64,000 nucleotides of DNA, from the IMG/VR virus record IMGVR_UViG_3300039190_000120, positions 1-64,000 of that record; one strand, given 5' to 3'. Made by a program: the position numbers and the translations under genes. Shown piece by piece: positions 2,227 to 59,438 of this stretch. Numbering within the stretch: position 1 is the stretch's first letter; each line of letters begins with the position of its first letter. Below the pieces are notes generated by a model that ran no database searches, was not told the origin of the DNA, and worked only from the letters and a program-made list of their open reading frames with translations. Origin of the DNA: a virus.

Positions 2227-2748
2227 GGGGAAACAAGATGGAAAGCCAAGAGCTGCCGCACCCACTTTTTGATGAAGTCCTCCAACTCCAACGTACTGTA
2301 GCGGAGAAACGTAGGGAAGTGGAAAGAAAGATCTCAGACCTGAAACAGGCTGAGTTCGAGAAGCTAGTGGATGGCGTAGAGCAACTCGTCACGGAAGTTC
2401 TCCCCTATGAACTCAGTAAGAAGCCCACTTCTTACGAGGATTACAAACAGGCCTTGTTTTTTCAGCTCACTGATAACATCAAGGTGCCTACCAAAGAGGG
2501 GTACTCTGAGCTGCAGGCAGGGCGTACTAAAGGTAACGCCCGTTTTGATGTGCGCACGGGCTTCTCTGAGAAACACAAGAGGGTCGTATATTCAATCAAC
2601 ATCTCCCTCTTGTACCTAAGTTTTGCCCGCCCCAACTGCCCCTCACGTCTTCGGTCCTACCGTCTTGAAGACGTTCTAAGGGAACTTCAAGGTATCCTCG
2701 AAGAATTCGAGTGGACTATCGTAGCGGACTAAGGAACTTGAGATGGAA
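2203..2748. repeat. Imperfect direct repeat at two gene junctions
   Basis: Bases 2203-2243 and 2709-2748 share most positions. Each encodes the C-terminus of a gene (EWT-T/I-VAD), its stop, a spacer with a ribosome site, and the start ATGGAA of the following gene. The two copies are about 500 bases apart and flank one gene, as expected from a cassette bounded by homologous ends. Confidence 0.7.
2238..2732 (+). CDS. Hypothetical protein with N-terminal coiled coil
   Basis: 164 residues from ATG at 2238, preceded by GAGGGG, which favours this start over the ATG at 2205. Residues 12-50 look like a charged coiled coil; the rest is mixed alpha/beta. The C-terminus EWTIVAD matches that of the upstream gene, although the bodies of the two proteins do not look alike. 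Function unknown. Confidence 0.65.
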   Translation: MESQELPHPLFDEVLQLQRTVAEKRREVERKISDLKQAEFEKLVDGVEQLVTEVLPYELSKKPTSYEDYKQALFFQLTDNIKVPTKEGYSELQAGRTKGNARFDVRTGFSEKHKRVVYSINISLLYLSFARPNCPSRLRSYRLEDVLRELQGILEEFEWTIVAD

Positions 2749-3054
2749 GAAAGCAACCACAAGATTGGTGATTGGGCGGGCCTAGTTGACGACTTCTGGC
2801 GATCCAGAGGGTACCCCTCGAAGGTTACTCTCTGGGGTCCCCGCATCAATGTCTACATCAACGCAGAAGCCTTGGAGTGCAGCCACAAAGAAGCTGTCAA
2901 TCTCCAAATCCTGTTTGAGGCTGAATGTCAGACGGGCGGGTGGCGCTTCTATAAGGGACCCAACCCGCACCGTCTACAGGATTATGACGATCCTCTGGAT
3001 GCGTGCCAGCAGGCCTATGAGGCTCTGGTCGCGAAGACACACCCGGTGAAGTAA
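2743..3054 (+). CDS. Hypothetical protein
   Basis: 103 residues, starting 10 bases after the previous stop in the repeated junction sequence. It is small, Trp-rich and mildly acidic. No motif recognised. The next gene follows almost directly, so the row from 799 to 3716 looks like one transcription unit. Confidence 0.65.
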   Translation: MEESNHKIGDWAGLVDDFWRSRGYPSKVTLWGPRINVYINAEALECSHKEAVNLQILFEAECQTGGWRFYKGPNPHRLQDYDDPLDACQQAYEALVAKTHPVK

Positions 3055-3055
3055 A

Positions 3056-3607
3056 ATGCAAGGTCAGTTAAGCGAAAAGCAGAGGGCTGCTCTCCAGCAG
3101 GTGGTGAGGAACCGATTGAGGGGCATGGTTCAGGGCCGTAAGGTCTACGACTTGGGCGCGGGTACGTGCCATCTGTCACGCATCTTATTGGATCTAGGAG
3201 CTTCTGAGGTGGTGGCTATTGACCGTCACCCCAAACCCGACGATCTACCTTATCACCAGAACCTGAGGTACCGTCAAGCGTACTTCCACGATCTGGACCC
3301 TATCACAGATGGGGTCGCTTTCCTGAGCTGGCCGCAACAGTACATCAAAGAAATCGTACCGGTGGTAGCTCCAGCAGACACGATTGTCTACTTGGGGTGC
3401 AACACAGATATGTCAGCTTGTGGACCGGACGAGTTCTGGGAGTACGTACAGGGGAGGGAGTTGGTAGCCCATATTCCCTCCAAAAGGAATACCCTTCTAG
3501 TCTATGGGGGGCCACAACCAGAAGGGCATCGGGAACTCGTCCTTGAAGAGCGGGCAGGGCTCGATAGATCCCGTATCTACTCCTACAGTGAGTCCTATGA
3601 AGTATGA
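3056..3607 (+). CDS. Class I SAM-dependent methyltransferase-like protein
   Basis: 183 residues. VYDLGAGTCHLS (residues about 30-41) is a typical SAM-binding motif I and VVAIDRHP (about 54-61) fits motif II of a Rossmann-fold methyltransferase. The C-terminal half (VVYLGCNTD and NTLLVYGG-type strands) fits the rest of the fold. The substrate is unknown. The gene overlaps the start of the small RiPP-like peptide gene by 11 bases, so a link between the two is possible but unproven. Confidence 0.65.
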   Translation: MQGQLSEKQRAALQQVVRNRLRGMVQGRKVYDLGAGTCHLSRILLDLGASEVVAIDRHPKPDDLPYHQNLRYRQAYFHDLDPITDGVAFLSWPQQYIKEIVPVVAPADTIVYLGCNTDMSACGPDEFWEYVQGRELVAHIPSKRNTLLVYGGPQPEGHRELVLEERAGLDRSRIYSYSESYEV

Positions 3608-3716
3608 ACCGCCGAAACTCAAGAAGCTAGGCAAGCTCAGTCAGCTTATCCGCATGGGATCAGGACCTTGCAATTGTCCCGGTCAAGGCTGTGGAAACGC
3701 CCCGTTCTGCCCGTGA
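3597..3716 (+). CDS. RiPP-like precursor with lasso-type leader
   Basis: 39 residues, translationally coupled to the upstream methyltransferase-like gene. The N-terminus MKYEPPKLKKLG has Y3, P6, L8 and G12, matching the Y-x-x-P-x-L-x-x-x-G recognition pattern of lasso-peptide leaders. The C-terminal GSGPCNCPGQGCGNAPFCP has four Cys (25, 27, 32, 38) but no Asp or Glu, so it could not form a lasso macrolactam. The usual leader Thr is also absent. No maturation enzymes lie in the window. The upstream ribosome site is weak. It could instead be a small metal-binding protein. Confidence 0.55.
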   Translation: MKYEPPKLKKLGKLSQLIRMGSGPCNCPGQGCGNAPFCP

Positions 3717-3718
3717 CC

Positions 3719-4723
3719 TTAGTCGTTATTGCGGGATTCAATGCGGGCACGCATCTGCTCCAGAATGCCTTCCTCAACACCGGCAGCCTCTAGAGAGGCA
3801 ACCATCTCAGGAGTCATCGGGCCGGTATAGACCTGACCACTCTCAAGGAAGTCATTGAAGGTGGGCTCGCTCGCCATGATCAGGTAGTGGTGAGCTACAA
3901 TCTTAGCGATCTTGACGGACTTGGCTACCTTGGAGGTAGCACTCTTCTTTTTGTCTAGCTTTTTGATCACGGTTCCATCTCCCATATAGGTATGTTCAAG
4001 TGCGGGTACGAGGTAATTACTTCGCAAGGTTGCGGCTTCGTGCCCAACCTCTTTAGCGACATTCTCCAGTGCCTTTTTGAATTCCTTTTCGAGGACCTTC
4101 TCCCGCTCTTTCTTATCCTCCGGGAGCTTCTTACCTCCCTTCCGCACCTTCTTTAGCTCTTCCTGCATCAGGCGGTTGGCGTGGTATCCACGTACGTCCT
4201 TCGCTGTAATATCGAACGAGGTGAGGTACTCATTGACGTCCTTCGCTCTCACGCACGTCTTGTCCTTCCCATCATCACAGTCAAAGATGAAGTCGTCTTT
4301 GTCCTTGCCTTCCATTTGCTCTTTGAGGGCCTTCGCAAGGGCGGCGTCCTCGATGGTCTTCTTGTGATCAACACCAGACTTCCCGGTGTAATCAAACGTG
4401 ACCTTGTTGCCGCTGACACTGATATGCTTCTTCTTCCAGACGGTGACGCCGTAGTGCTCATTCTCTTTTGCGCTCTTCTCATTGCCAACACGCTCGTAGG
4501 TCTTATCCATCAAGGCTACAGCGAGGGCTTGGAGGCGCTTCCGGTCATCATCGGATTTGAGATCCTCTTTGACCTTCTTGCGGAGCTTGTCGATGTTCTG
4601 GTTGAGCTTCTCGACCTTCTTGGCCTTTTCCCGGTTACGGTGCTGGACCTGTTTGTCCGAATACTCGTAGACCGTCTCCCCATCTTCGGTCTTTTTCTTC
4701 TTCTTGTATTTAGCGTCAGCCAT
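3719..4723 (-). CDS. DNA topoisomerase IB, poxvirus type
   Basis: 334 residues. It relaxes supercoils by a 3'-phosphotyrosine intermediate. The catalytic residues can be placed: R78 in YERVGN, K115 in the YTGKSG turn, R178 in the AKDVRGYHANR helix, H228 in EVGHE and the nucleophile Y237 in LRSNYL. The Lys-rich N-terminus (residues 1-60) is too short to hold the usual N-terminal beta clamp domain, so only the catalytic domain seems present. It converges on the plus-strand genes with 2 bases between stops. Confidence 0.8.
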   Translation of the reverse strand: MADAKYKKKKKTEDGETVYEYSDKQVQHRNREKAKKVEKLNQNIDKLRKKVKEDLKSDDDRKRLQALAVALMDKTYERVGNEKSAKENEHYGVTVWKKKHISVSGNKVTFDYTGKSGVDHKKTIEDAALAKALKEQMEGKDKDDFIFDCDDGKDKTCVRAKDVNEYLTSFDITAKDVRGYHANRLMQEELKKVRKGGKKLPEDKKEREKVLEKEFKKALENVAKEVGHEAATLRSNYLVPALEHTYMGDGTVIKKLDKKKSATSKVAKSVKIAKIVAHHYLIMASEPTFNDFLESGQVYTGPMTPEMVASLEAAGVEEGILEQMRARIESRNND

Positions 4724-4753: not shown

Positions 4754-5102
4754 TTACAGGCTTCTCTGTAGCTCTTCAAGCATACCGTGAAGGTCAGTAG
4801 CGGCGGCCTTGAGATCACCCGACTGACCCTTAGCCTGCTGAACACGACGGCTCAGGCGGCGAGGATCTTCGCCAGCTTCCATCCCCTCGATCAGCTTGTT
4901 CAGCTCACCTTCGAGGTTGGCCTTAGCGTACCCAGCCTTCTGGAAGGAGTAAGCCAGTTGACCGGCCACGTCGTCAAAGGCTGGGTACGCTGTATCCGGC
5001 AGCTTCTTTACCTGTGAGCTGATCTAGCACAGGACGGATATGGTCTTGTAGCTCCGGCTTCTCTGCACCGAGGCGGATCAGTTGCTCTTTCAGGTTATTC
5101 AT
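4754..5102 (-). CDS. Small alpha-helical protein split by +1 frame change
   Basis: An ATG at 5102 opens a 42-codon frame (starting MNNLKEQLIRLGAEKPEL) that ends at TGA 4976-4974. The +1 frame continues to 4754 with VAGQLAYSFQKAG and a helical tail. Two readings are possible: ribosomes shift at CTT TGA C, the known RF2 frameshift site, or one base is extra upstream (for example in the GG near 5005), which would restore LTVKKLPDTAYPAFDDV. The N-terminal motif is common in small proteins of large phages. Function unknown; it probably shares a message with the topoisomerase. Confidence 0.55.
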
Positions 5103-5224: not shown

Positions 5225-5932
5225 ATGAGCGATACACAGGATGCCAAAAATGTTACCCACTTCGACGCCGTTGGAGACGTCCACGGCTGTCACTACGAGC
5301 TATTAGAGCTTGTGGAGAAGCTGGGCTATGTCGAAGGTGACGACGGCCTCTACCGACACCCGGAAGGACGTAAGCTCGTCTTGGTGGGTGACATAACGGA
5401 CCGTGGATACTACAATAGTCTGGCCCTCCAGTTGGTCTACCGCCACTGGAAAGCTGGTGAGTGGTATTGGGTACAGGGCAACCACGACAACAAGATGTTC
5501 CGGTGGATGAAAGGCAACCCGGTGCGTCCGTCACACGGCCTCCAGAAAACCATCACCGAATTGGAACAGGGCTGGCCCTTCGATGAAGACCGTGAAGAGC
5601 TGGGACAGTACCTCCTCGACGAAGTACCCACCAAGATAGAGCTTGACGATGGGAACGTCGTGGCAGTCCACGCTTATAACGGGAAGAGCCGCCTGCGTAT
5701 GTACGGAAAGCGGGGAGGACCGGACAACGAGCGTATAGAGTGGTGGAAGGATTACGAGGGGCCTGAGTTCGTCGTATTCGGCCACTACTGGCTCAACGAC
5801 CCTACGGTGTATGAGCACTACTGCTGCGTAGACACGTCCTGCGTCTGTGGGGAGACTCTCACGGCTATGAGATGGCCGGAGAGGGAAGTTGTGCAAGTCG
5901 ACGCCAAGCAGGTGTATTATGAGTCACGATAA
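5225..5932 (+). CDS. Metallophosphatase, Pnkp phosphatase-domain type
   Basis: 235 residues with the PPP-family metal motifs GDVHG (17-21), GDITDRG (55-61) and GNHD (85-88), then VVAVHA and VFGHYW for the later histidines. The stretch GNHDNKMFRWMKGN followed by HGLQKT resembles the phosphatase domain of bacterial Pnkp more than general protein phosphatases. With the separate kinase (799) and ligase (6460) it probably removes 3' or 2',3' phosphates from cut RNA. A protein or Ap4A phosphatase role remains possible. AGAAGAG precedes the ATG. Confidence 0.75.
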   Translation: MSDTQDAKNVTHFDAVGDVHGCHYELLELVEKLGYVEGDDGLYRHPEGRKLVLVGDITDRGYYNSLALQLVYRHWKAGEWYWVQGNHDNKMFRWMKGNPVRPSHGLQKTITELEQGWPFDEDREELGQYLLDEVPTKIELDDGNVVAVHAYNGKSRLRMYGKRGGPDNERIEWWKDYEGPEFVVFGHYWLNDPTVYEHYCCVDTSCVCGETLTAMRWPEREVVQVDAKQVYYESR

Positions 5933-20500: not shown

Positions 20501-23500
20501 TCCCCAATCACACGTCCATCTATGACTTCTAGCAGAGCCTCGAAGCCGTCAACCACCCTATTGTAGTAGGCCAGTAGGACACGTCCAGCTCGATCTTGAT
20601 CTCGGAGGTCGCCGCCCTCATAGATAAGACCCTCATTGCCTTTCTGGTAGATCTCTTGGGAGCCGGAGGTGGAAATTACAGGACCCGAAGATGCAGCCTG
20701 TGCCTTGGCATTCCGATCAATCTGAGAGGCTACTTCCAGTGCGTACTCTTCCATCTCGATGGCCCGGAAGAAGAACGTATCAGGGCTCAGGAAGTCGTAA
20801 CTGGCCTTGAGTGTGGCATTTTGGAGTCCGTTGTCCTCGGAAGCGTTGACCCGTCTTGTGTAAGAGGCTCTAAACTTTGGGAGGAAGGTCTGGCCGCCAA
20901 TTTTCTTCGGCCCCACGGAACGCAGGGCTGTATAGGCTAGGTGCCATACCTCTCCATCCTTAGGGGCATCGGTGACGGTAGGCTCGATGATGATACGGCC
21001 ACCGCTTTCATACGTGTAGGCAAAGTCCTGCTCCAGAACAGAACCTTCACCATTGGGACCAAAGCGAATGAGGGTGATTGGCTCGGTATCTACGCCGATG
21101 CGACTGAATTTCAGGAACTGAGCATCCGGGACATAGACCGGATACTTTGAGATCACCAGAGCGGGCTGCGTATACTCACGCATCAGGTTAGAGGCAAAAA
21201 CCACACGGGTAAGGGCTGCCTCTTCGTCATAGGACACCCCTTGAATATAGTAAGGATCGCCATCAAGGTAGAGTAGAAAGCCTTCTTCGAGGGTGCTCGT
21301 CTGGTCTCCACGAACCTGTAGCTCGGCGGTTCCAGCGCTGTTGGGCTCCGAAGAGAAAGCTAGGGACTCCAGTGCCTCAATCGGGGTTGTAGTGACAAGC
21401 ACCGTGGGCTGCCGGAGCGTCTCACGAGGCGGCACACTAAGCTCTATCTCAGTGATGTTGGTACCAGCGTCATAGCTTGCCTGCAGGACCTCAAAGCTCT
21501 GGTCATCGGCCTGCATAAAGATGCCGGGCTCCAATACATCGGTGTGATCTCCTCGGAACTGTTGGCTGGTGGCGGCTGCGAATATCACAGGAGGGGTAAA
21601 AGGCTCCTGTAGGAGGGAAGCGGTTTGTTCACCACCCGCAGCGTCGAGAGCATAATAGGAGACGTGTACCTTTCGCCCACTGCGAACCGACTGTACATTA
21701 ACAGTCTTTGTGGAAGCACTGGCATTTAGATCGGAGGGTACGCCGTTAACCAAGACCTGCATAGCCCTTTCAGGGTCGAGGGTACGACCTGACCCGAAGC
21801 TCAAGGTAGCGGAGCTTCCAGCACGACCAGCATCCTCTTTGACACGGAAGCCTACGTTATCCTCGACGGTTCCATTGGCTGTCTGGTACCTCACGAAGAG
21901 GCTCTGGCCTGTCCTAAAGGGCTTCTCGAAAAAGAGCAGTTGTCCTCGTTGGGTATATCCATCCTCAGGGACAAGCGACCGGACTACCAGAGGCTCAGGT
22001 TGGAGGTCTGCGGGAAGACCGATCTCTCCTGTGGACGCAAGTACCTCCACCGGGCCGGTACTGCGACCCACACTTAGAGAGGGGTCCAACACAACGGAAG
22101 CACCCTCGTCTGCGACATTGAAGAGCAGGGTCTTCCCATCCCCATCAATGGCGTATTCACCGGGGCCGGGGTTCGAGGACACCTCGGTAAGCTCCACCTC
22201 TTCTCGCCAGAGCTTATACTGTGCTGTGGCATCCCTGTAATGCACGGGTAACTCGGGGCTCTGAGAGATAGGCCCAAGCACCTCAGACTCTAGTACCACA
22301 TGAGCTACCACTGTCCCGTCCAAGACAAACTCGTGGTCCTCACCATCTGGCACATAGGTGTCCACGTCAGTGACCACATAAGGGAAGACCGTACGCTCTC
22401 GGAGGTCAGCTTGCTCAAAGGCATAGCGGTAGATGATCTCCGGGGCCTCTAAGATCTTGAACTCAGTGGTATCATTACCGTCCAGATCCAGTGGCCTATC
22501 TACCGTCACTGAGGTCGAAGTTGAAGACAGGACACGATAGGCATCGGAGCCCACCAAAAGAATGGGGCTCTTTGTAGGTTCGGGAGGCACAGAGAGGCCA
22601 CTGAGGTCGACAGAGGTGGCTTCTAGTGTGTCAGCACCTGTGAGCGTTCCCACATCCTCGTAGAGCTGCTCTCCGACCTTCTCAATGAATGTGAGCGTGC
22701 CCGAATCGAAGTTGGCAAGAACCTCGTTGGAGCCCACGAGATTCTGATACCCACCTCCCTCATTCAGCTCGAACTCATATCCCTCGTCATGCAGCACTTG
22801 GTGCGGCAACTGGAGCGAGTACGTGGGCGAAGCTAGTACCTCATTGTGACTCTCTTGCTGTGCCCACTGGAGCTGTTGGTTGTCGAAGTCATAGATCACG
22901 TCCACATCGGGCTCTAGAAGACGACGCTTAGGTCCCTTCTGTACCCGGAAGAACACATCGTCTCCGTAGCCTGCCACATCTTGGAGGGGGAGCTGGTTGA
23001 GGCGCAAAGAAGGGCCTGCCGGGATGGAGTCGGAAAGCACCGTATCCACCACTCTCTCCACACCCTTACCATCAGGAAGGCCTCTGTTGTTTGAGGGGTC
23101 CACCGGGCTCTGGGCAAGTCTAAAGGAAATGCCGTTCTCGATAGGGAAGTCAGAGGTTCCGGCCACCAATGTAGATCCAGCTTCCTCTCGCCTCAGTGCG
23201 TAAGATAGCTGGACCTGTCCGTTGCTTCGTGCCACCTGTGCTCGTGTAGCGGGGAGGTTCAGGGAGTCCTCAAGGTCTGCGGGTTCCGCTACGAAGTCCA
23301 CCTCTGAGATAGAGACGCCCGTCTCTTTGATGTAGAGCAGGAGGCTATCTTCGTCGTACTGTGAGAAGTCCACGTTCCCCATCGTGGTACTCATAGCATC
23401 CCCATCCTCAATCGTCCCCAAGTCGGTATGGACGTAGGACTCGACGGGCTCTGTATTGGAGAAGACGCCATCGTAATAGACAGAGGCACCCTCAAACTCG

Positions 23501-24477
23501 GCTTCGAGCGAGGTGTCAAGATGGATCTCCCCGGTGTCCGGGTTCCATACGTAATCATACCCCGTAGAAGGTGCCGTCAGGGACGTAGATGATTCACCTC
23601 GAAGGTGAGAGCGATACTCGATTCGGATTCGAGGGGACTCCGAAGAGGTCGGAATCGGGTTCATGTAAAGGTCGGAACCTACCACGCCGATCTCACCAGT
23701 GCTCTGGTCATACCCAAAGAAGTTGGTGCGGAAGCAGTAGACCGCCTGATTGAGGTAGGAGGTCGTCAGGTCATCAGCAAAGAGGAGATCCCCACTCTCC
23801 ACATTCAGAACAGCTTCCCCTGTCGGGACCGTATTGATCCCATTCTGGTAGTTCTGGTATTGTGCAGCAGTGACACGGTTAGCTTCGGGTACAGGTACCA
23901 CCACACCGTCATTCAGGTCTTGGCTACCAACAATCAAGAGAGGCTCGTTGCCTTCCACCACAGGGAGAGATAGTTCCTCCCCGATAGCACCAAGAGCTTC
24001 TGGGCTGGAGCCGGGTAGTGTGTTCCACCTCTGCTTACGGTCGTCAAAACCAAACCGGGTACGCTCGTCATTCGAGGTCCAGTTGATCTTGAGCCTTGAA
24101 GGTTCCCACGTCACCTCGACGTCCTGTGTGGGGTCGGTAGTGTACTTTACCAGACCGGCCAGTTCGTCAGTAGAGTCCGGGGTCGGCGTCACGGAGACAA
24201 CGGATTCGAGAGACCGTCCTCCTCCGTTAAACTGGTAGAGACCGTCCTCTACCTTGGTGGCTACCTCAGTGATCTCCGAAGGGACCACTAAGTCTGCCGT
24301 CTCGTATACCTGCACAAGGTATGCAGTAGAGATAGCTTCGGGGTCGTTCAAGACGGCGGCTTCGTAGGCAGACCGGTCCTGTTGGCGTACCAGTACGTCA
24401 CCCTCTCCAGTGAAAGGGGAGTTACTGCTTGCGGTGCGTGGCTTACGGAGGACAAAACCGTCGAAAGGAACTTGCAT
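17551..24477 (-). CDS. Giant beta-rich virion protein, 2308 aa
   Basis: A single open frame of nearly 7 kb. It is almost wholly beta-predicted, with many repeated short Ig-like units and recurring phrases of the ILLVGSDAYRVLSSTSTSVT kind. It lacks the long hydrophobic helices of a tape measure protein; the TMP is at 37672. The C-terminus becomes helical and basic (ending RRRKELIKLLSSS). Most likely a large baseplate or fibre protein. A late-like motif lies about 60 bases upstream and TATACA is near 24490. Confidence 0.55.
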   Translation of the reverse strand: MQVPFDGFVLRKPRTASSNSPFTGEGDVLVRQQDRSAYEAAVLNDPEAISTAYLVQVYETADLVVPSEITEVATKVEDGLYQFNGGGRSLESVVSVTPTPDSTDELAGLVKYTTDPTQDVEVTWEPSRLKINWTSNDERTRFGFDDRKQRWNTLPGSSPEALGAIGEELSLPVVEGNEPLLIVGSQDLNDGVVVPVPEANRVTAAQYQNYQNGINTVPTGEAVLNVESGDLLFADDLTTSYLNQAVYCFRTNFFGYDQSTGEIGVVGSDLYMNPIPTSSESPRIRIEYRSHLRGESSTSLTAPSTGYDYVWNPDTGEIHLDTSLEAEFEGASVYYDGVFSNTEPVESYVHTDLGTIEDGDAMSTTMGNVDFSQYDEDSLLLYIKETGVSISEVDFVAEPADLEDSLNLPATRAQVARSNGQVQLSYALRREEAGSTLVAGTSDFPIENGISFRLAQSPVDPSNNRGLPDGKGVERVVDTVLSDSIPAGPSLRLNQLPLQDVAGYGDDVFFRVQKGPKRRLLEPDVDVIYDFDNQQLQWAQQESHNEVLASPTYSLQLPHQVLHDEGYEFELNEGGGYQNLVGSNEVLANFDSGTLTFIEKVGEQLYEDVGTLTGADTLEATSVDLSGLSVPPEPTKSPILLVGSDAYRVLSSTSTSVTVDRPLDLDGNDTTEFKILEAPEIIYRYAFEQADLRERTVFPYVVTDVDTYVPDGEDHEFVLDGTVVAHVVLESEVLGPISQSPELPVHYRDATAQYKLWREEVELTEVSSNPGPGEYAIDGDGKTLLFNVADEGASVVLDPSLSVGRSTGPVEVLASTGEIGLPADLQPEPLVVRSLVPEDGYTQRGQLLFFEKPFRTGQSLFVRYQTANGTVEDNVGFRVKEDAGRAGSSATLSFGSGRTLDPERAMQVLVNGVPSDLNASASTKTVNVQSVRSGRKVHVSYYALDAAGGEQTASLLQEPFTPPVIFAAATSQQFRGDHTDVLEPGIFMQADDQSFEVLQASYDAGTNITEIELSVPPRETLRQPTVLVTTTPIEALESLAFSSEPNSAGTAELQVRGDQTSTLEEGFLLYLDGDPYYIQGVSYDEEAALTRVVFASNLMREYTQPALVISKYPVYVPDAQFLKFSRIGVDTEPITLIRFGPNGEGSVLEQDFAYTYESGGRIIIEPTVTDAPKDGEVWHLAYTALRSVGPKKIGGQTFLPKFRASYTRRVNASEDNGLQNATLKASYDFLSPDTFFFRAIEMEEYALEVASQIDRNAKAQAASSGPVISTSGSQEIYQKGNEGLIYEGGDLRDQDRAGRVLLAYYNRVVDGFEALLEVIDGRVIGDRDGKFLFELQGDYQPGGVDPITGELLPYYANPQNPGQKPSASDIEQVKDLDSQTGYVRNFIDDLVMVSKKPFDIGSTLPLSFEYKGTFRPMWKPSRLSRLYPEQKQTFTITAPADGGGSYEFPEDFLHILADPKQDSILSIENIRVRAAKARVTTEGVEGSQDGNGGEVRLKVAVGFDPMTGEFTNSPFDPTNPVPTKYLPPFEVGDHVNIGRVTYSGGAQGVDRTTSVYGENLIVTSVGADYIEVKTNPHGGDHPNLTATNATSLNPERGDTVYTIPAVMVDTGAFSLSDGDPPYYRTPLDLFVNASEGELLNTTLPSFMADLLGQAQIEPKTFLDMTVNFRNQSLEPHRFPALDGGTTDDDGDQKPPYVQPFQDSEMQRLIREVVANEVVQNDTHEGQVVDATVLNATTLSVPNLTGLTAPPRRHDLVLIEGVTNGGQSIPFSVGALSTTELVLAAFVVEDASVVYTVENLYEGTGSRHSSINERWEDAVDFTAFSGASSLTLHVDDGAGGHSSYSVNDLQNGYLEVTSPIAESGPANYFLEASGTGSIPAGLHRIDDGTIDFSAAQGALTVSSSGPNNGTYVARGGGSGYLYPEVIPLADTTPVVVGISNAPDIATGTAEAVASTRTLLTPDPVGDVEAGQTLVITGTNLNAGRYTVESVDATATPSAIVVEEPLYTDDGDHTALTPLYPVNWRVSQPRRFSPQVEALQTELAGQRVTYALNSDSDADIQPYLGATSSNPSTPYKERLLVLMDRVFGVPVVSVSGSVSGGSFEGTDFVNAGVEKGDFVVVAQGDNRGFYTVDSIDSGSSPQKLLVSGSNEYTTYSLTDEASTSFEVYRGSIFQPKTYQLILFEYINVLDLIDRLDDGIRMTIHDPDDLEGTPLSYLERPGDPDDATLDRHIQAVDTRNDWIRDQSPNLRQEIEGILKGTEALYDIRYTWIDFRTNLEDGTLARRDRYRENLARRQRKRRKELIKLLSSS

Positions 24478-43393: not shown

Positions 43394-44062
43394 TCACAGA
43401 TAATCTTCGACGCCTTCAAACTGGCGGTCATACTCTTCGACGAGCTGCTTGAAAATGCCTAGCTCTTTCATGTTGGCGATCTTTTCGCCTTCATCGGAGT
43501 TAGGCCACTTGTACTCAGCACCATGCAATAAAAGCTCATAACCGGCACCACCGGGGTCGAGGATATAAGGTCCCCACACCTCACTATAGCGGCGGGAGTG
43601 ATAAGTGAGCCCTACCACCTTGTCAGTACGCCCAAGCGGGTCAATGGGACGGTTCTTGAAGACGCTTACTGTGATGCCCTCGTACACACCGAAAGCCGGA
43701 ACATCGAGGTGATCTTGCCACGTCTGAATCACTGCATTGACGAGCTTACGCATCAAGTAGGGAGGGACGTAGTAATCATCACCATGAAAAGAAAACTTGA
43801 CGCCCGACACTGAATACTCGAACTTGGCACGTTGATAGTACCACGTGATGGCCCTCACAAAGATACCAGCACCCACTACAGTGACGCCTGCTGTTGACCA
43901 GACGAGGCCCGGATCGTTGAAATCTAGGGCAGCCCAGATGGTGCACAGGATACCAATGATGGTAAAGGCTCCTGCCGTCCAGCTCATATTACGAGCGAAC
44001 CGGAGGCGCTTGGCATCCTCATTGGGTACCGGATACTTGTCTGCGGTAAGTAGCTTCGACAT
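43394..44062 (-). CDS. Membrane-anchored hypothetical protein
   Basis: 222 residues. Two membrane segments (about 27-47 and 54-76) are followed by a soluble domain with aromatic-rich strands (FSFHGDDYYVPPYLMRKLVNA, an H-W-x-x-H-like WQDHLDVPAFGVYEG). It starts one base into the stop of the intein-bearing gene. A membrane protein inside the tail block is unusual; it might act at the baseplate or during ejection. Confidence 0.55.
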   Translation of the reverse strand: MSKLLTADKYPVPNEDAKRLRFARNMSWTAGAFTIIGILCTIWAALDFNDPGLVWSTAGVTVVGAGIFVRAITWYYQRAKFEYSVSGVKFSFHGDDYYVPPYLMRKLVNAVIQTWQDHLDVPAFGVYEGITVSVFKNRPIDPLGRTDKVVGLTYHSRRYSEVWGPYILDPGGAGYELLLHGAEYKWPNSDEGEKIANMKELGIFKQLVEEYDRQFEGVEDYL

Positions 44063-46698
44063 TAGAGATCCTCGTCATTCAGATAGGTGGTGGCGACCTT
44101 GGAGGCAAGCGTTTTGAATCCCGTAGAGTCTGTGATTTCCGCCATATAGGCTTCGTGTTCCTTCACCATGCGCTCTAGGTGGGGATAGAACCACTCACGT
44201 AGCTGCGTGCTATTGATTCCATCACCCGCTTCAAATGCGTGAGGTAGGATCTCTAGCATATCACTTCTATGCAACACATCACGTGAGGTATTGAGTAGGA
44301 ACTCCAGACGCTCGACAGCCTTTTCCTTAGAGTAGTCAGAGTCTGGCAGCTTCGAGTCGTAGTTGCTGTGGCTGAACATGTGGGAGCCGTCATTAAACCT
44401 GACGGTAACACCGCCATGCGTGCTCAGCTCAACACCAACGACTTCGGCACCCCTCTGCGGAATACTCTCCAAAGAGGTGGTGATAGCGGCCTGCTTGTTG
44501 ATCGAGCTATCACGGCCCTCGAAGTAGTTGTCCTTCTTGCAGCGAGGGGAGCCGGGTTTCTTGTATTTGCAGTTATGGGCAATCATTCCATTTGCCACAA
44601 AAGATACATCTTCGGGAACACTAACGTCATACACATCAGTCTCCCCTTGAGCCTCTACCTGTGTGACTCTATCAAAGTAATACCCATGATTCATAAGCTC
44701 ACGAATATTATCAACAACACCTTCGGTGCCTCTACAGGATTCTAAGGCGTCCCACTTGCGGAGTAGACGTGAGAGGCTCACCCTTTTGGTGCCGGGAAAT
44801 GCTGACCTAACCTTGCTACCTAATTTAAGAAGGGACTCAGCCGGGATCATCTCAAACTCGGACCCCCTCTGACGCTGGCGATCTCCAGATACGGCCACCT
44901 TCTTAAATGCCGTTCCTATCTGATCTCGGTATTTCACCACCATAGGCTTACTGTGTACCCGGACATTAAAATAGCCACGAGCGTTACATTCGAGACTGGC
45001 AGGTATACCAAAGTTCAGTAGAAGCAGGTGTAGCTGACGGGCTAGAGGCTCAGAGGAGGTAGACAAGTCAACACGGTTCAGGTGGTCGGAGTCTCCAGTG
45101 TACCCATCACCCTCGACGAAACCTACCAAGAATTCCCTCACCATCTCACGAGGCGCTTCCATAATAATGGAAGGTACCTGCTTGTCGTGAGCTGTTCCCG
45201 GAGGTAGACCTAAAGCCTCAAAAAACTCTCTATACCAGCGTGTTCTGAGACGAACCTTCCCGCAATCTTTCCACCCTTCCTCGGACCTATCTCGCCACTC
45301 TACGATAGGCTCCTGTCCAAATACCTCTTTTGAGCAGCGAACAAAATCCCTAATGAGTCGGGGATCGGTGTTGGAGAACTCCACACCTTCTTCCGTTACA
45401 GATCCTTCAGCAACTAAGTAGCCCAGCAATCTCGCTAGAGCAGGAGATAGTTCTCGTGGCTGCCTAAATGGAATGACATTGTTCCATGTGTTGGTTTCAT
45501 ACCCGATCTCAGGTAGTGTGGTACGTGCTCCCCATACACCATGCGTAGGTAGCACTGCATAGCGTCCTAGAGCTTCCTGAGCCTCTACCCATTCCGTACT
45601 GTAATCATTCTCGTTAAGTACGAGGATCTGGTGGTCCGGGGTACAGGTGAGGGAATAACCATGTTTAGTGTTTACGGACACCGTGGACTTGGTACCTGTA
45701 TAAATGATATGGCTAGAAGCGGCCTCTCCATATCGGGAGGCCAGTCTTACACGGGTTGGTTTAGCTTCTACCCCATCGGAGTGCATTACCTTTTGACCCG
45801 CAGCTTCGTTGTATAACTCCTCCACACTTTTAAGTCCGTTCTGTGTAGGCACTAAGGTGTTGCCTGCCACACAGTAGCGGGACCAAGCGATAGCCCACGC
45901 CTTGTCCTCGTCCATCCCCTTGTCTTTGTGCTCTTTGACGTACCGCTCGACAGTCTTAGGAATGTCCTTTGCTCTCCGTGCCATACTAGCGGCACGGGAA
46001 TCCTGAGAGAGGTAGGACGCCAGTAGACCGTTCATCTGGTCAGATCGGACTGCAATGTCCAACTGGAGATGATCGAGCAGAGCATCTAGGATCTGGAGTG
46101 CCTCATACTCTTTGACCACCAAAGCACGTTCCAACAAGCGGACCGCTTTGTCCTGAGCTTTGAGAGCACCACGTGAGGGGTCACGCTGGATACCCCCTAC
46201 CATATCAGACAGGAGAGCAGTCAGGCGGCCTTCAGCTACCCCTCCAGTATCCACACCGTCAAGTACCTCGGAGGCTGCGGACTCCACAGAGCCGGTAGGC
46301 AGGCCGATCTTGAGGTACCCGATTAGGGAGCGAATGAACTCGTGGGCGTCACGGTTGGAGAGGGAGGCATCATCATCCAGCTCTTCCCGCACCATCTGAG
46401 CCAGCTTCGTCTCGGCACGCTGCGGATCTTTGCTGGGAAAAGGGGAGAGTGCCTGCAGGATATAGCTCTTGATACCCTCGATCAGCTTCTTCTGGAAGCC
46501 ATCGGACAGGTTAGGGAGGTAGGTAGCCCGGAGGTATCTAGAGGAGACCTTGGAGGCCAGAGCGCCTTCACGGCTTCCTGTCACGACGGAGGTGCCGTTC
46601 TCTTCCATGTAGTCGAGAAGACTACGGATCGGAACCTTGAGGCCGGGCTCACGGGCTCCCATAGCAAGCAGGAGGCGTTTCAGATCGTCGGGATTCAT
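44062..46698 (-). CDS. Intein-containing structural-region protein
   Basis: 878 residues before splicing, about 444 after removal of the intein at 276-709. The N-extein has helical domains; the C-extein restarts with CKYKKPGSPRCKKDNYF. The spliced junction would read DEDKAWAIAWSRY-CKYKKPG, a conserved-looking Cys-containing motif. The gene lies between the tail tube and chaperone genes, after a strong terminator. The extein may be a structural or assembly protein. Finding an intein here, and not in a replication enzyme, is uncommon. Confidence 0.65.
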   Translation of the reverse strand: MNPDDLKRLLLAMGAREPGLKVPIRSLLDYMEENGTSVVTGSREGALASKVSSRYLRATYLPNLSDGFQKKLIEGIKSYILQALSPFPSKDPQRAETKLAQMVREELDDDASLSNRDAHEFIRSLIGYLKIGLPTGSVESAASEVLDGVDTGGVAEGRLTALLSDMVGGIQRDPSRGALKAQDKAVRLLERALVVKEYEALQILDALLDHLQLDIAVRSDQMNGLLASYLSQDSRAASMARRAKDIPKTVERYVKEHKDKGMDEDKAWAIAWSRYCVAGNTLVPTQNGLKSVEELYNEAAGQKVMHSDGVEAKPTRVRLASRYGEAASSHIIYTGTKSTVSVNTKHGYSLTCTPDHQILVLNENDYSTEWVEAQEALGRYAVLPTHGVWGARTTLPEIGYETNTWNNVIPFRQPRELSPALARLLGYLVAEGSVTEEGVEFSNTDPRLIRDFVRCSKEVFGQEPIVEWRDRSEEGWKDCGKVRLRTRWYREFFEALGLPPGTAHDKQVPSIIMEAPREMVREFLVGFVEGDGYTGDSDHLNRVDLSTSSEPLARQLHLLLLNFGIPASLECNARGYFNVRVHSKPMVVKYRDQIGTAFKKVAVSGDRQRQRGSEFEMIPAESLLKLGSKVRSAFPGTKRVSLSRLLRKWDALESCRGTEGVVDNIRELMNHGYYFDRVTQVEAQGETDVYDVSVPEDVSFVANGMIAHNCKYKKPGSPRCKKDNYFEGRDSSINKQAAITTSLESIPQRGAEVVGVELSTHGGVTVRFNDGSHMFSHSNYDSKLPDSDYSKEKAVERLEFLLNTSRDVLHRSDMLEILPHAFEAGDGINSTQLREWFYPHLERMVKEHEAYMAEITDSTGFKTLASKVATTYLNDEDL
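44572..45873 (-). other. Intein with LAGLIDADG homing endonuclease
   Basis: 434 residues. It begins with C276 (CVAGNTLVPTQNG, splicing block A) and has block B with TCTPDHQILV (T and H at about 351-356). The two LAGLIDADG helices are LLGYLVAEG (424-432) and FLVGFVEGDG (523-532). Splicing block G is VANGMIAHN followed by the extein Cys710. All splicing residues (Cys, TxxH, penultimate His, Asn, +1 Cys) are present, so it should be active. The endonuclease would spread the intein to empty alleles. Confidence 0.9.
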
Positions 46699-51198: not shown

Positions 51199-52146
51199 TT
51201 GAGTAAGAAGTGGACACAAGATCGAATCAAAGAAGCCCTCACCATTCTTAGCAAACACCATGAGTATAGTCAAGCTCTAGAAGAGATTGACGAGTCCTCT
51301 AACTCGCTTGGATCTGCCTTCCAGAGAGGTGGTCTCGAAGCGCCCACCACCTACCTCGCAGAGGATGAAAAGGAAGCGCTCTTCCGCCGCAACAGTCATT
51401 TGCCGGAAGGCCTGCGTAGCATCGTGGTGTTCAATGACGTGCACGTTCCCTTCCACAACAAAAACGGCGTGGAGGCTGTGCTCGACTTCTGCCGGGATAA
51501 CCAACCGGACGTGATCGTGATCAACGGGGACTTCCTCGATTGCTACTCGATCAGTGACTTCCACAAGGCTCCGGGAATGCCCGTTCTACAGGACGAGCTG
51601 GACGAGGGGCTGGAGATCTTGGAGAAGCTGCGGCGCTACTGCCCACTCTCAGAGATCTGGTACACAGAGGGCAACCACGAAGAACGCCTTCGCCGTCTGA
51701 TCAAGCAGCAGCACGGGCTTTACGGGCTCAAGGCCTTTACCCTCGAATCTCTGCTTGAATTCGACCGCCTCGGTATCAACTACAAGCAGTATGGTGACGT
51801 CGTTTGGTTTGGCGATCTCGCCATCTACCACGGCACGCACATCAGTGGTCACGCTGCTTACTCGGCTCGACGTGAGCTGGAGCGTGGTGGCTTTAAGTAT
51901 TGCATCACCGGCCACGTCCACCGTCTCGGGTTTCACCACCGCAAAGGCTACACGGGGAACCGGATGGCCCTTGAGAACGGCGGGCTCTTCGACATTGAGC
52001 AGTGTGACTACATGCTGAATCCGAACTGGATGAATGGCTTCTCCATCGTCTACCAAGACGTAGAAAAGGATTTCATTCAGATCAACCCGATCCCGATGGA
52101 GTATGACGGGACGTTCATCTGGAACAACAAATGGTACGGCTGCTAA
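51199..52146 (+). CDS. Calcineurin-like metallophosphoesterase
   Basis: 315 residues with a TTG start, decided by AGGAGG at 51188-51193, a near-perfect ribosome site. The metal motifs are FNDVHVP (about 78-84), INGDFLDC (about 108-115), GNHEER (about 159-164) and the late GHVH (about 239-242). The N-terminal 65 residues are helical and could bind nucleic acid. Substrate unknown; it may act on nucleic acid or nucleotides. Confidence 0.75.
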   Translation: MSKKWTQDRIKEALTILSKHHEYSQALEEIDESSNSLGSAFQRGGLEAPTTYLAEDEKEALFRRNSHLPEGLRSIVVFNDVHVPFHNKNGVEAVLDFCRDNQPDVIVINGDFLDCYSISDFHKAPGMPVLQDELDEGLEILEKLRRYCPLSEIWYTEGNHEERLRRLIKQQHGLYGLKAFTLESLLEFDRLGINYKQYGDVVWFGDLAIYHGTHISGHAAYSARRELERGGFKYCITGHVHRLGFHHRKGYTGNRMALENGGLFDIEQCDYMLNPNWMNGFSIVYQDVEKDFIQINPIPMEYDGTFIWNNKWYGC

Positions 52147-54778: not shown

Positions 54779-55321
54779 TCATTGACTCTCGACTTGGATA
54801 CTAAAGGGACTGGCGTCCTCGCAGTACCACGTATCACAGAAGAAATGGAAGGTAGTAGCATCAGGGCTGATACGTAGGACTACTGGCTTCTTAACACGGC
54901 GGCGGCCTTTCGTGTCAAGTGCATCGGCCACCGACGTCTCTAGCATGAGGTATCTCTTCTTGCGTAGGATACCAAGTCCCTCTTCCTGTACGGCTTTCAG
55001 GTCACGCCCGTTAATCAGGTAGAAGAGGTCTTGCTCAGGGGCGGCTATGGGGTAGTCAAACTGTTCAGTCGTATGCCCTGTGAGCGCCCGGTATTGGTTT
55101 CCATCTCTTACATCGAAGTACGTACCTTCTCCATCTTCGAGGGCCTCTTTAATGAGGGCCTCTGGAAGCTCCATCGGCTGGGACAGTTGGAGCCCGTAGA
55201 CGATGCTCTCTGTGTCGACGAATCCCTCTTCGTCAAGGTACAGGTCGTACCTCTCAGGGTCGTGTCGGAGAGCATCGAGAAGCATCTTGCGTACTTGTGA
55301 CTTCGTTACGTCAGTCATCAC
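54779..55321 (-). CDS. RNA 2'-phosphotransferase-like protein (KptA/Tpt1), divergent
   Basis: 180 residues. LDALRHDPERYDLYLDEEGFV (cut here to its core LRH at 18-20 and LDEEGFV) matches the winged-helix start of KptA/Tpt1. YRALTGHT (77-84) matches the RA-x-x-GHS motif. Tpt1 moves the 2'-phosphate left by ligation to NAD+. The NAD-binding HGT and HVHLS motifs are changed (LING, YLMLETS), so activity is uncertain. It fits the RNA-repair genes at the left of the window. Confidence 0.65.
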   Translation of the reverse strand: MMTDVTKSQVRKMLLDALRHDPERYDLYLDEEGFVDTESIVYGLQLSQPMELPEALIKEALEDGEGTYFDVRDGNQYRALTGHTTEQFDYPIAAPEQDLFYLINGRDLKAVQEEGLGILRKKRYLMLETSVADALDTKGRRRVKKPVVLRISPDATTFHFFCDTWYCEDASPFSIQVESQ

Positions 55322-58750: not shown

Positions 58751-58805
58751 GGACCGGAAGTAGTAGGTAGATAGTCCCTTGGAACGCCAAAAGGTAAGAC
58801 ACGTC

Positions 58806-59438
58806 ATGGACCAACTCAAGATCTCAGTATCATCTCTTCCGGGCCACGAGCGATCTCTGTACGATCATAGCATCAAGATGGCGTACTCGCAAGAGTCCCT
58901 TCGCCCCTATCTTCTCCCGATCATCAAAGAGGCTGCAAGGTCCATCGGCCTCAACAAGCTCAAACAGCTTCACGAGAAGAGGGGCACATTTGCTATCCTC
59001 TCGGCGTACCGTCCTCTCTCCAAGAGCGAGAACCAAGACCGGCATGGCGAGTTGATCCGGGACCTACAAATCATGGGGTACCGTAAGTGGTATGACGCCA
59101 AGGGCTACTGGACACATACAGAGAAGAGCCTCTTGGTTCCAAAAATGAACTTCGGGGACGCCATGCAGATGGGACACAAGTACGACCAAGATGCTGTTGT
59201 GTTTAAGTCTATGGACGGTATTATCGGGATCTACTACATGGCTGATCGTACGGTTCAGTTGGTAGGCCCTGATATTGAGATGGAAGCGGAAGACGATGAT
59301 GCTATCACCAACTTCCGTAACACCGGACTCACGTACGACCTGTATGACGAGCGCATTCCCTTCCGTGGCCCCGTCACGAAGAAGTACCTTGAGCAGAAAG
59401 GGTATGCAGACGACTATCCCGGCCTGATGGCTATGTAA
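58806..59438 (+). CDS. Conserved large-phage hypothetical protein
   Basis: 210 residues from the ATG at 58806; a TTG at 58779 would add nine residues. The stretch FAILSAYRPLSKSENQDRH, then GYWTHTEKSLLVP and YDQDAVVFKSMDGIIGIYY, gives a mixed alpha/beta domain typical of large-phage proteins related loosely to DUF3293. It converges on the next gene with an 8-base overlap. Function unknown. Confidence 0.6.
   Translation: MDQLKISVSSLPGHERSLYDHSIKMAYSQESLRPYLLPIIKEAARSIGLNKLKQLHEKRGTFAILSAYRPLSKSENQDRHGELIRDLQIMGYRKWYDAKGYWTHTEKSLLVPKMNFGDAMQMGHKYDQDAVVFKSMDGIIGIYYMADRTVQLVGPDIEMEAEDDDAITNFRNTGLTYDLYDERIPFRGPVTKKYLEQKGYADDYPGLMAM

Follow-up and report, generated by a model that had tools for sequence, protein, structure and literature searches.

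A conserved cysteine-rich peptide of large tailed phages whose N-terminus resembles a lasso leader

The stretch of viral DNA analyzed here (the window, 64,000 nucleotides) encodes a small cysteine-rich peptide that codon comparison with a relative shows to be the product of a real coding gene, under purifying selection over its whole length. By the same comparison, two phage lineages keep both the gene and its flank. Our best explanation, to which we assign a probability of about 0.48, is that it is a genuine phage microprotein that works unmodified, with its Cys cluster acting as a metal-binding module and its N-terminus as a docking segment. The window comprises bases 1-64000 of a 96,323-bp IMG/VR record (G000), whose source is a large uncultured tailed phage, as seen from genes for a Baseplate_J protein, an intein-bearing protein and a DNA gyrase A-like protein. 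Thymidine kinase, thymidylate synthase, and DHFR genes are also encoded by this record.

The peptide gene occupies positions 3597-3716 (+, stop included) and its translation is MKYEPPKLKKLGKLSQLIRMGSGPCNCPGQGCGNAPFCP, in agreement with the 39-residue Cys-rich product described in the sequence-only reading. It closes a rightward operon: its start overlaps by 11 nt the 3' end of the gene (3056-3607, +) for a SAM-type Rossmann protein of 183 aa, and its stop falls 2 nt short of a convergent topoisomerase IB gene (3719-4723, -; PF01028 E 1.1e-34; 63% identity in the relative's locus, L064). A P-loop (AAA_33) kinase-like gene (799-1344, +; PF13671 E 7.7e-23; 86% identity in the relative) lies near the left end of this gene run. 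Codons 1-19 (3597-3653, +) form a putative leader resembling those bound by RiPP recognition elements (RREs), with the pattern Y(-17)xxP(-14)xL(-12)xxxG(-8)xxxxxI(-2), and codons 20-39 (3654-3713, +) form the putative core MGSGPCNCPGQGCGNAPFCP. As had been claimed, this Cys-rich part holds four Cys and no Asp or Glu. The residues concerned are Y3, P6, L8, G12, and I18 in the leader and Cys25, Cys27, Cys32, and Cys38 in the core, the latter spaced as CxCx4Cx5C.

A homologue of 40 aa, MKYTPPKLKRLGKLSQLIQAGSGPCSCPGPGCGNPPFCRG (L064, 3289-3411, -), was found in G001 (IMGVR_UViG_3300028377_000005, 115,647 bp), a diverged phage contig colinear with G000. It shares 79% amino acid identity with the window peptide and stands at the matching place, just ahead of the convergent topoisomerase IB gene. 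Its ATG joins the end of an 86-aa ORF by a TAATG overlap and has an SD-like AAAAGGA upstream, which gives good support to the start at MKY. Across the 39 codons, the two genes differ by 18 purely synonymous and 8 amino-acid-changing codons (pS 0.85, with synonymous sites near saturation; pN 0.16; pN/pS 0.18), and pN is 0.17 in leader codons 1-20 and 0.15 in codons 21-39 (pS 0.83). The corresponding pN/pS values of the neighbors are 0.39 for the methyltransferase, 0.32 for the topoisomerase, 0.13 for the kinase, and 0.19 for the phosphatase; the peptide is about as constrained as the best conserved of these and more so than the methyltransferase or topoisomerase. Y3, P5, P6, L8, L11, G12, I18, and all four Cys (C25, C27, C32, and C38) are unchanged in both homologues. 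Only four leader positions changed, and the invariance of the five lasso positions taken alone is not significant (estimate ~0.26). The sequence-only reading had proposed looking for homologues with the same leader spacing and Cys pattern, and the one in G001 has both; neither of the adverse outcomes that it named, a lost leader spacing or a Cys part conserved beside a leader that is not, occurred.

Setting Tyr3 to position -17 places P6 at -14, L8 at -12, G12 at -8, and I18 at -2, a fit that is exact in both homologues and leaves a putative core of 20-21 residues beginning M/A-G-S3. In lasso leaders examined by experiment, YxxPxL runs from -17 to -12 and Thr occupies position -2 (PMC10368454; see also PMC6856326); the rarer Ile/Val(-2) leaders are found in Bradymonadales, Acidobacteriaceae, and Sphingomonadales (PMC10368454). 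The proposed lasso-leader spacing of Tyr, Pro, Leu, and Gly is thus present (Y3/P6/L8/G12 = YxxPxLxxxG), with Ile18 at the Thr/Ile(-2) site. YxxPxLxxxG arose in 0.34% of leader shuffles and, combined with T/I/V(-2), in about 4e-5, a figure to be read with the fact that the T/I/V(-2) set was picked after the fact and that many other motifs could have been flagged. Among ~11,200 start codons that open ORFs of 20 aa or more in the two records, YxxPxLxxxG occurs near the N-terminus in this gene only. On the other hand, the NCBIfam model NF033521 (lasso_leader_L3) scored the window peptide at 13.7 bits (E 0.051), below its 19-bit cut-off, and did not report the G001 homologue. The claim of a lasso-type leader therefore holds for the spacing, exact and kept in the homologue, but gains no backing from the family model.

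Compared with lasso precursors (NF033521; the Ile(-2) subtype BsfA, PMC10368454), the peptide is alike in its leader residues and their exact spacing, its small size, and its core of ~20 residues, the third a Ser like that of phosphorylated lasso peptides. It is unlike them in its Cys-rich core starting with Met/Ala, in the absence from either homologue of an Asp/Glu at core positions 7-9 for a macrolactam, in its score under the model cut-off, and in that no B1, B2, or C genes were found. Lasso-like leader motifs occur in non-lasso RiPPs too, namely PQQ, LPPs, and StsC-type sactipeptides (PMC13381572, PMC12710340), and a core of another kind than lasso is therefore no objection by itself. Likewise, LPPs (PMC13381572) and PqqA have a lasso-like YxxPx[L/V] in the leader without being lasso RiPPs, so that a lasso core need not follow from a leader of this kind. 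LPP precursors differ from the phage peptide in having highly variable C-termini and kinase, RRE, and SpI-like peptidase genes alongside, none of which were found here, and PqqA differs in needing a radical SAM enzyme, also not found here. A literature search by keyword returned no description of a phage-borne precursor of this type.

The RRE, protease, and radical SAM genes that the sequence-only reading suggested seeking in the phage genome were not detected in ~146 kb of map, the extent jointly covered by the overlapping G000 and G001 records, neither of which is closed (G001 reaches an estimated ~47 kb past the left end of G000, and G000 ~30 kb past the corresponding end of G001). Searches of both records, including the whole neighborhood of the peptide gene, yielded no PqqD/RRE (PF05402), B2 peptidase (Transglut_core3, PF13471), or cyclase (Asn_synthase, PF00733) of the lasso set, and no radical SAM (PF04055), YcaO (PF02624), MNIO (PF05114), or LanC-like (PF05147) enzymes. 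A single PqqD match of 10 bits inside a 1,086-aa ORF was dismissed as noise.

The upstream operon neighbor (3056-3607) is a class I SAM-type (Rossmann) methyltransferase-like protein with weak Pfam, NCBIfam, and PDB matches and the motif I D-x-G-x-G present as DLGAG at residues 32-36. Its AlphaFold2 model (pLDDT 73) retrieved assorted methyltransferases with Foldseek (E about 1e-4, TM about 0.4), and this predicted fold supports its assignment as a class I methyltransferase. A match to MADS mad2 (4e-6) probably reflects the shared methyltransferase domain. Homologues are found in G001 (56-60%) and in a 536-kb phage, G004 (E 1.4e-28). Gene order around them varies. In G001 an 86-aa ORF (L064, 3411-3671, -), missing from the window, lies between the methyltransferase and peptide genes, and the two ORFs that precede the methyltransferase in the window, one of 175 aa and one of 103 aa (the latter at 2743-3054, +, directly upstream and with no Pfam match), are both missing from the matching place in G001. 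The 536-kb phage has the methyltransferase homologue and no peptide was found in it; a weak NF033521 match beside that homologue lies on the strand opposite to the phage gene run and contains no peptide-like ORF, and was rejected as chance. No small peptide is annotated in the methyltransferase neighborhood of phage Goslar. The supposed coupling of the peptide to the SAM gene is thus seen as an 11-nt overlap in the window but is not immediate in G001 and is absent from G004, and gene order indicates that the methyltransferase is not a fixed partner of the peptide. The distant methyltransferase homologue of G004 (L169, 227959-228483, -) adjoins a PP2C-like phosphatase gene. The window phage, which encodes this SAM-type methyltransferase, also carries an S-adenosylmethionine lyase-like gene (58779-59438, +; PF23780 E 2.3e-8, DUF3293 E 1.2e-8).

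The peptide is narrowly distributed. Pattern scans of IMG/VR, which demand exact motifs and could let divergent relatives escape, recovered a fragment that apparently belongs to the same virus (L001/L107, IMGVR_UViG_3300035034_000619) and one true homologue, that of G001. With the core pattern CxCPGxGCG, the same homologue (L064) was the sole real new one among the matches listed, and the longer pattern GPCxCPGxGC gave no further homologue. L007, a match to a leader pattern with spacing one codon off, is antisense to a tape-measure-like gene and was considered chance. A single scan of GTDB genomes with the leader plus CxCP pattern gave four chance matches and no bacterial relative. No peptide homologue was found in INPHARED or PLSDB (BLAST with the low-complexity filter on), nor, by profile searches, in 13 more phage records whose topoisomerase IB or methyltransferase genes are related, in LR745208, or in Tunturi_5. 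Distant similarity links some structural proteins to those of the last two, an uncultured phage and a Tunturiibacter phage, respectively. The Acidobacteriaceae, in which Ile(-2) lasso leaders occur, may serve only as a lead to the host.

Other differences and likenesses between the two phages were observed. A 115-aa protein is intact in G001, whereas its window homologue (4754-5102, -) is broken into two frames (71 and 42 aa) and, from its sequence, looks frameshifted. Other proteins of both phages repeat its N-terminus, LKxxLIxLG...LRxHIRPVL, which may be a targeting or propeptide sequence that they share. A LAGLIDADG-bearing intein (PF14890 E 2e-14, PF14528 E 3e-17) is present in the window (44062-46698, -, about residues 277-711) and in G001 (21327-23534). 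The intein is nearly identical between the phages (95.5% over an aligned stretch that includes it) while the surrounding protein is only ~40% alike. In both phages it occupies the short motif WAIAWSRY/CKYKxPGSPRCK, whose place in the domain order differs between the two host proteins, and on these alignments the pattern is one of recent intein spread and domain rearrangement. Finally, a KptA/Tpt1-type RNA 2'-phosphotransferase (54779-55321, -) and two calcineurin-like phosphoesterases (5225-5932, + and 51199-52146, +) possibly form an RNA-repair set together with the AAA_33 kinase.

Several explanations other than an unmodified microprotein were weighed. That the ORF is no gene of its own, being a chance ORF or a frameshifted Cys-rich tail of the methyltransferase, is very improbable: it does overlap the methyltransferase in the +1 frame, which is open from about 3501, but in G001 an unrelated 86-aa gene precedes the peptide, which begins at an ATG of its own; this rules out a tail, and the excess of synonymous over changing codon differences indicates a coding, selected gene, its pN/pS ruling out a chance ORF. 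The adjoining methyltransferase might instead have the peptide as its substrate or as a small partner subunit (a RiPP carried by the phage, or an activator pair of the Trm112 type). The shared operon with its overlap, and the retention of both genes in G001, would fit such a role, which nevertheless seems improbable given the intervening gene in G001, the 536-kb phage that has the methyltransferase without such a peptide, and the faster divergence of the methyltransferase than of the peptide.

The remaining alternatives take the leader at face value. The peptide may be a RiPP-type precursor that relies on host machinery, its leader docking onto a host RRE of the lasso/PqqD type and being cut after residue 19, with the Cys-rich core of 20-21 residues modified or released, for instance as a toxin or exclusion factor. 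The exact spacing of Y(-17), P(-14), L(-12), G(-8), and I(-2) speaks for this, as do the real existence of Ile/Val(-2) leaders in the three bacterial groups above, the service of lasso-like leaders in PQQ, LPP, and StsC-type sactipeptide pathways, the conservation of the core, and the infection of the acidobacterium Tunturiibacter by an isolated phage with distant baseplate similarity. Set against it are the lack of RiPP enzymes in the phage records, the leader score below the model cut-off, and the lack of a bacterial relative in the single GTDB pattern scan or of any in plasmids, and we regard it as possible but unlikely. Slightly more doubtful still is the specific claim of a lasso-type RRE-binding leader carried without biosynthetic genes, whose Cys-rich core the infected host's RiPP machinery binds and processes or modifies. 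A leader that merely titrates a host RRE, as a decoy blocking host production of a lasso RiPP or PQQ, would agree with the conserved spacing and with the promiscuity of some lasso RREs (FusB1 binds non-cognate leaders; PMC13381572). However, the core of a pure decoy should drift, and here constraint on the Cys part matches that on the leader, with all Cys invariant; because of this equal constraint a pure decoy is disfavored, and we hold it to be quite improbable. The three possibilities raised by the sequence-only reading thus fall into an order, with the Cys mini-protein the likeliest, the host-processed RiPP next in play, and the decoy last.

According to the preferred reading of an unmodified microprotein, a cytoplasmic peptide of 39-40 residues would be made and left as it is. 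Its invariant CxCx4Cx5C would bind a metal, most likely zinc, or form a compact Cys/Gly/Pro module, and its conserved basic N-terminus (K-Y-x-P-P-K-L-K-x-L-G-K-L-S-Q-L-I) would serve to dock it to a single partner, from host or phage. The lasso spacing would then be a resemblance, or shared peptide-docking logic, and not a sign of RiPP biosynthesis. In favor of this are the equal constraint on leader and Cys part, as in one functional unit, the full conservation of the Cys ligand set in both homologues, the sub-threshold NF033521 score, and the lack of any RiPP maturation enzyme in G000 and G001. Against it, the exact lasso spacing including Ile at -2 would have to be a coincidence. The peptide resembles small Cys-rich zinc-binding microproteins of phages and bacteria in being short and basic, in its four invariant Cys under strong purifying selection, and in its operon-borne gene free of maturation genes. 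Unlike known zinc microproteins, its CxCx4Cx5C spacing matched no zinc family in Pfam, PHROG, or NCBIfam, and metal binding is putative. Also weighing against the preferred reading, AlphaFold2 gave no confident fold for the peptide (pLDDT 60), and the helical moment of the N-terminus was ordinary, with no significant sign of an amphipathic helix.

If the peptide is only a Cys-rich microprotein, it adds one small, clearly selected gene to the unexplained proteins of phages. If a host RRE binds it, the phage would be unusual in supplying a host RiPP pathway with a precursor, or in obstructing that pathway, and phage-host conflict would be linked to peptide natural products; were the host-processed reading true, the virus would be hijacking a natural-product pathway of its host.
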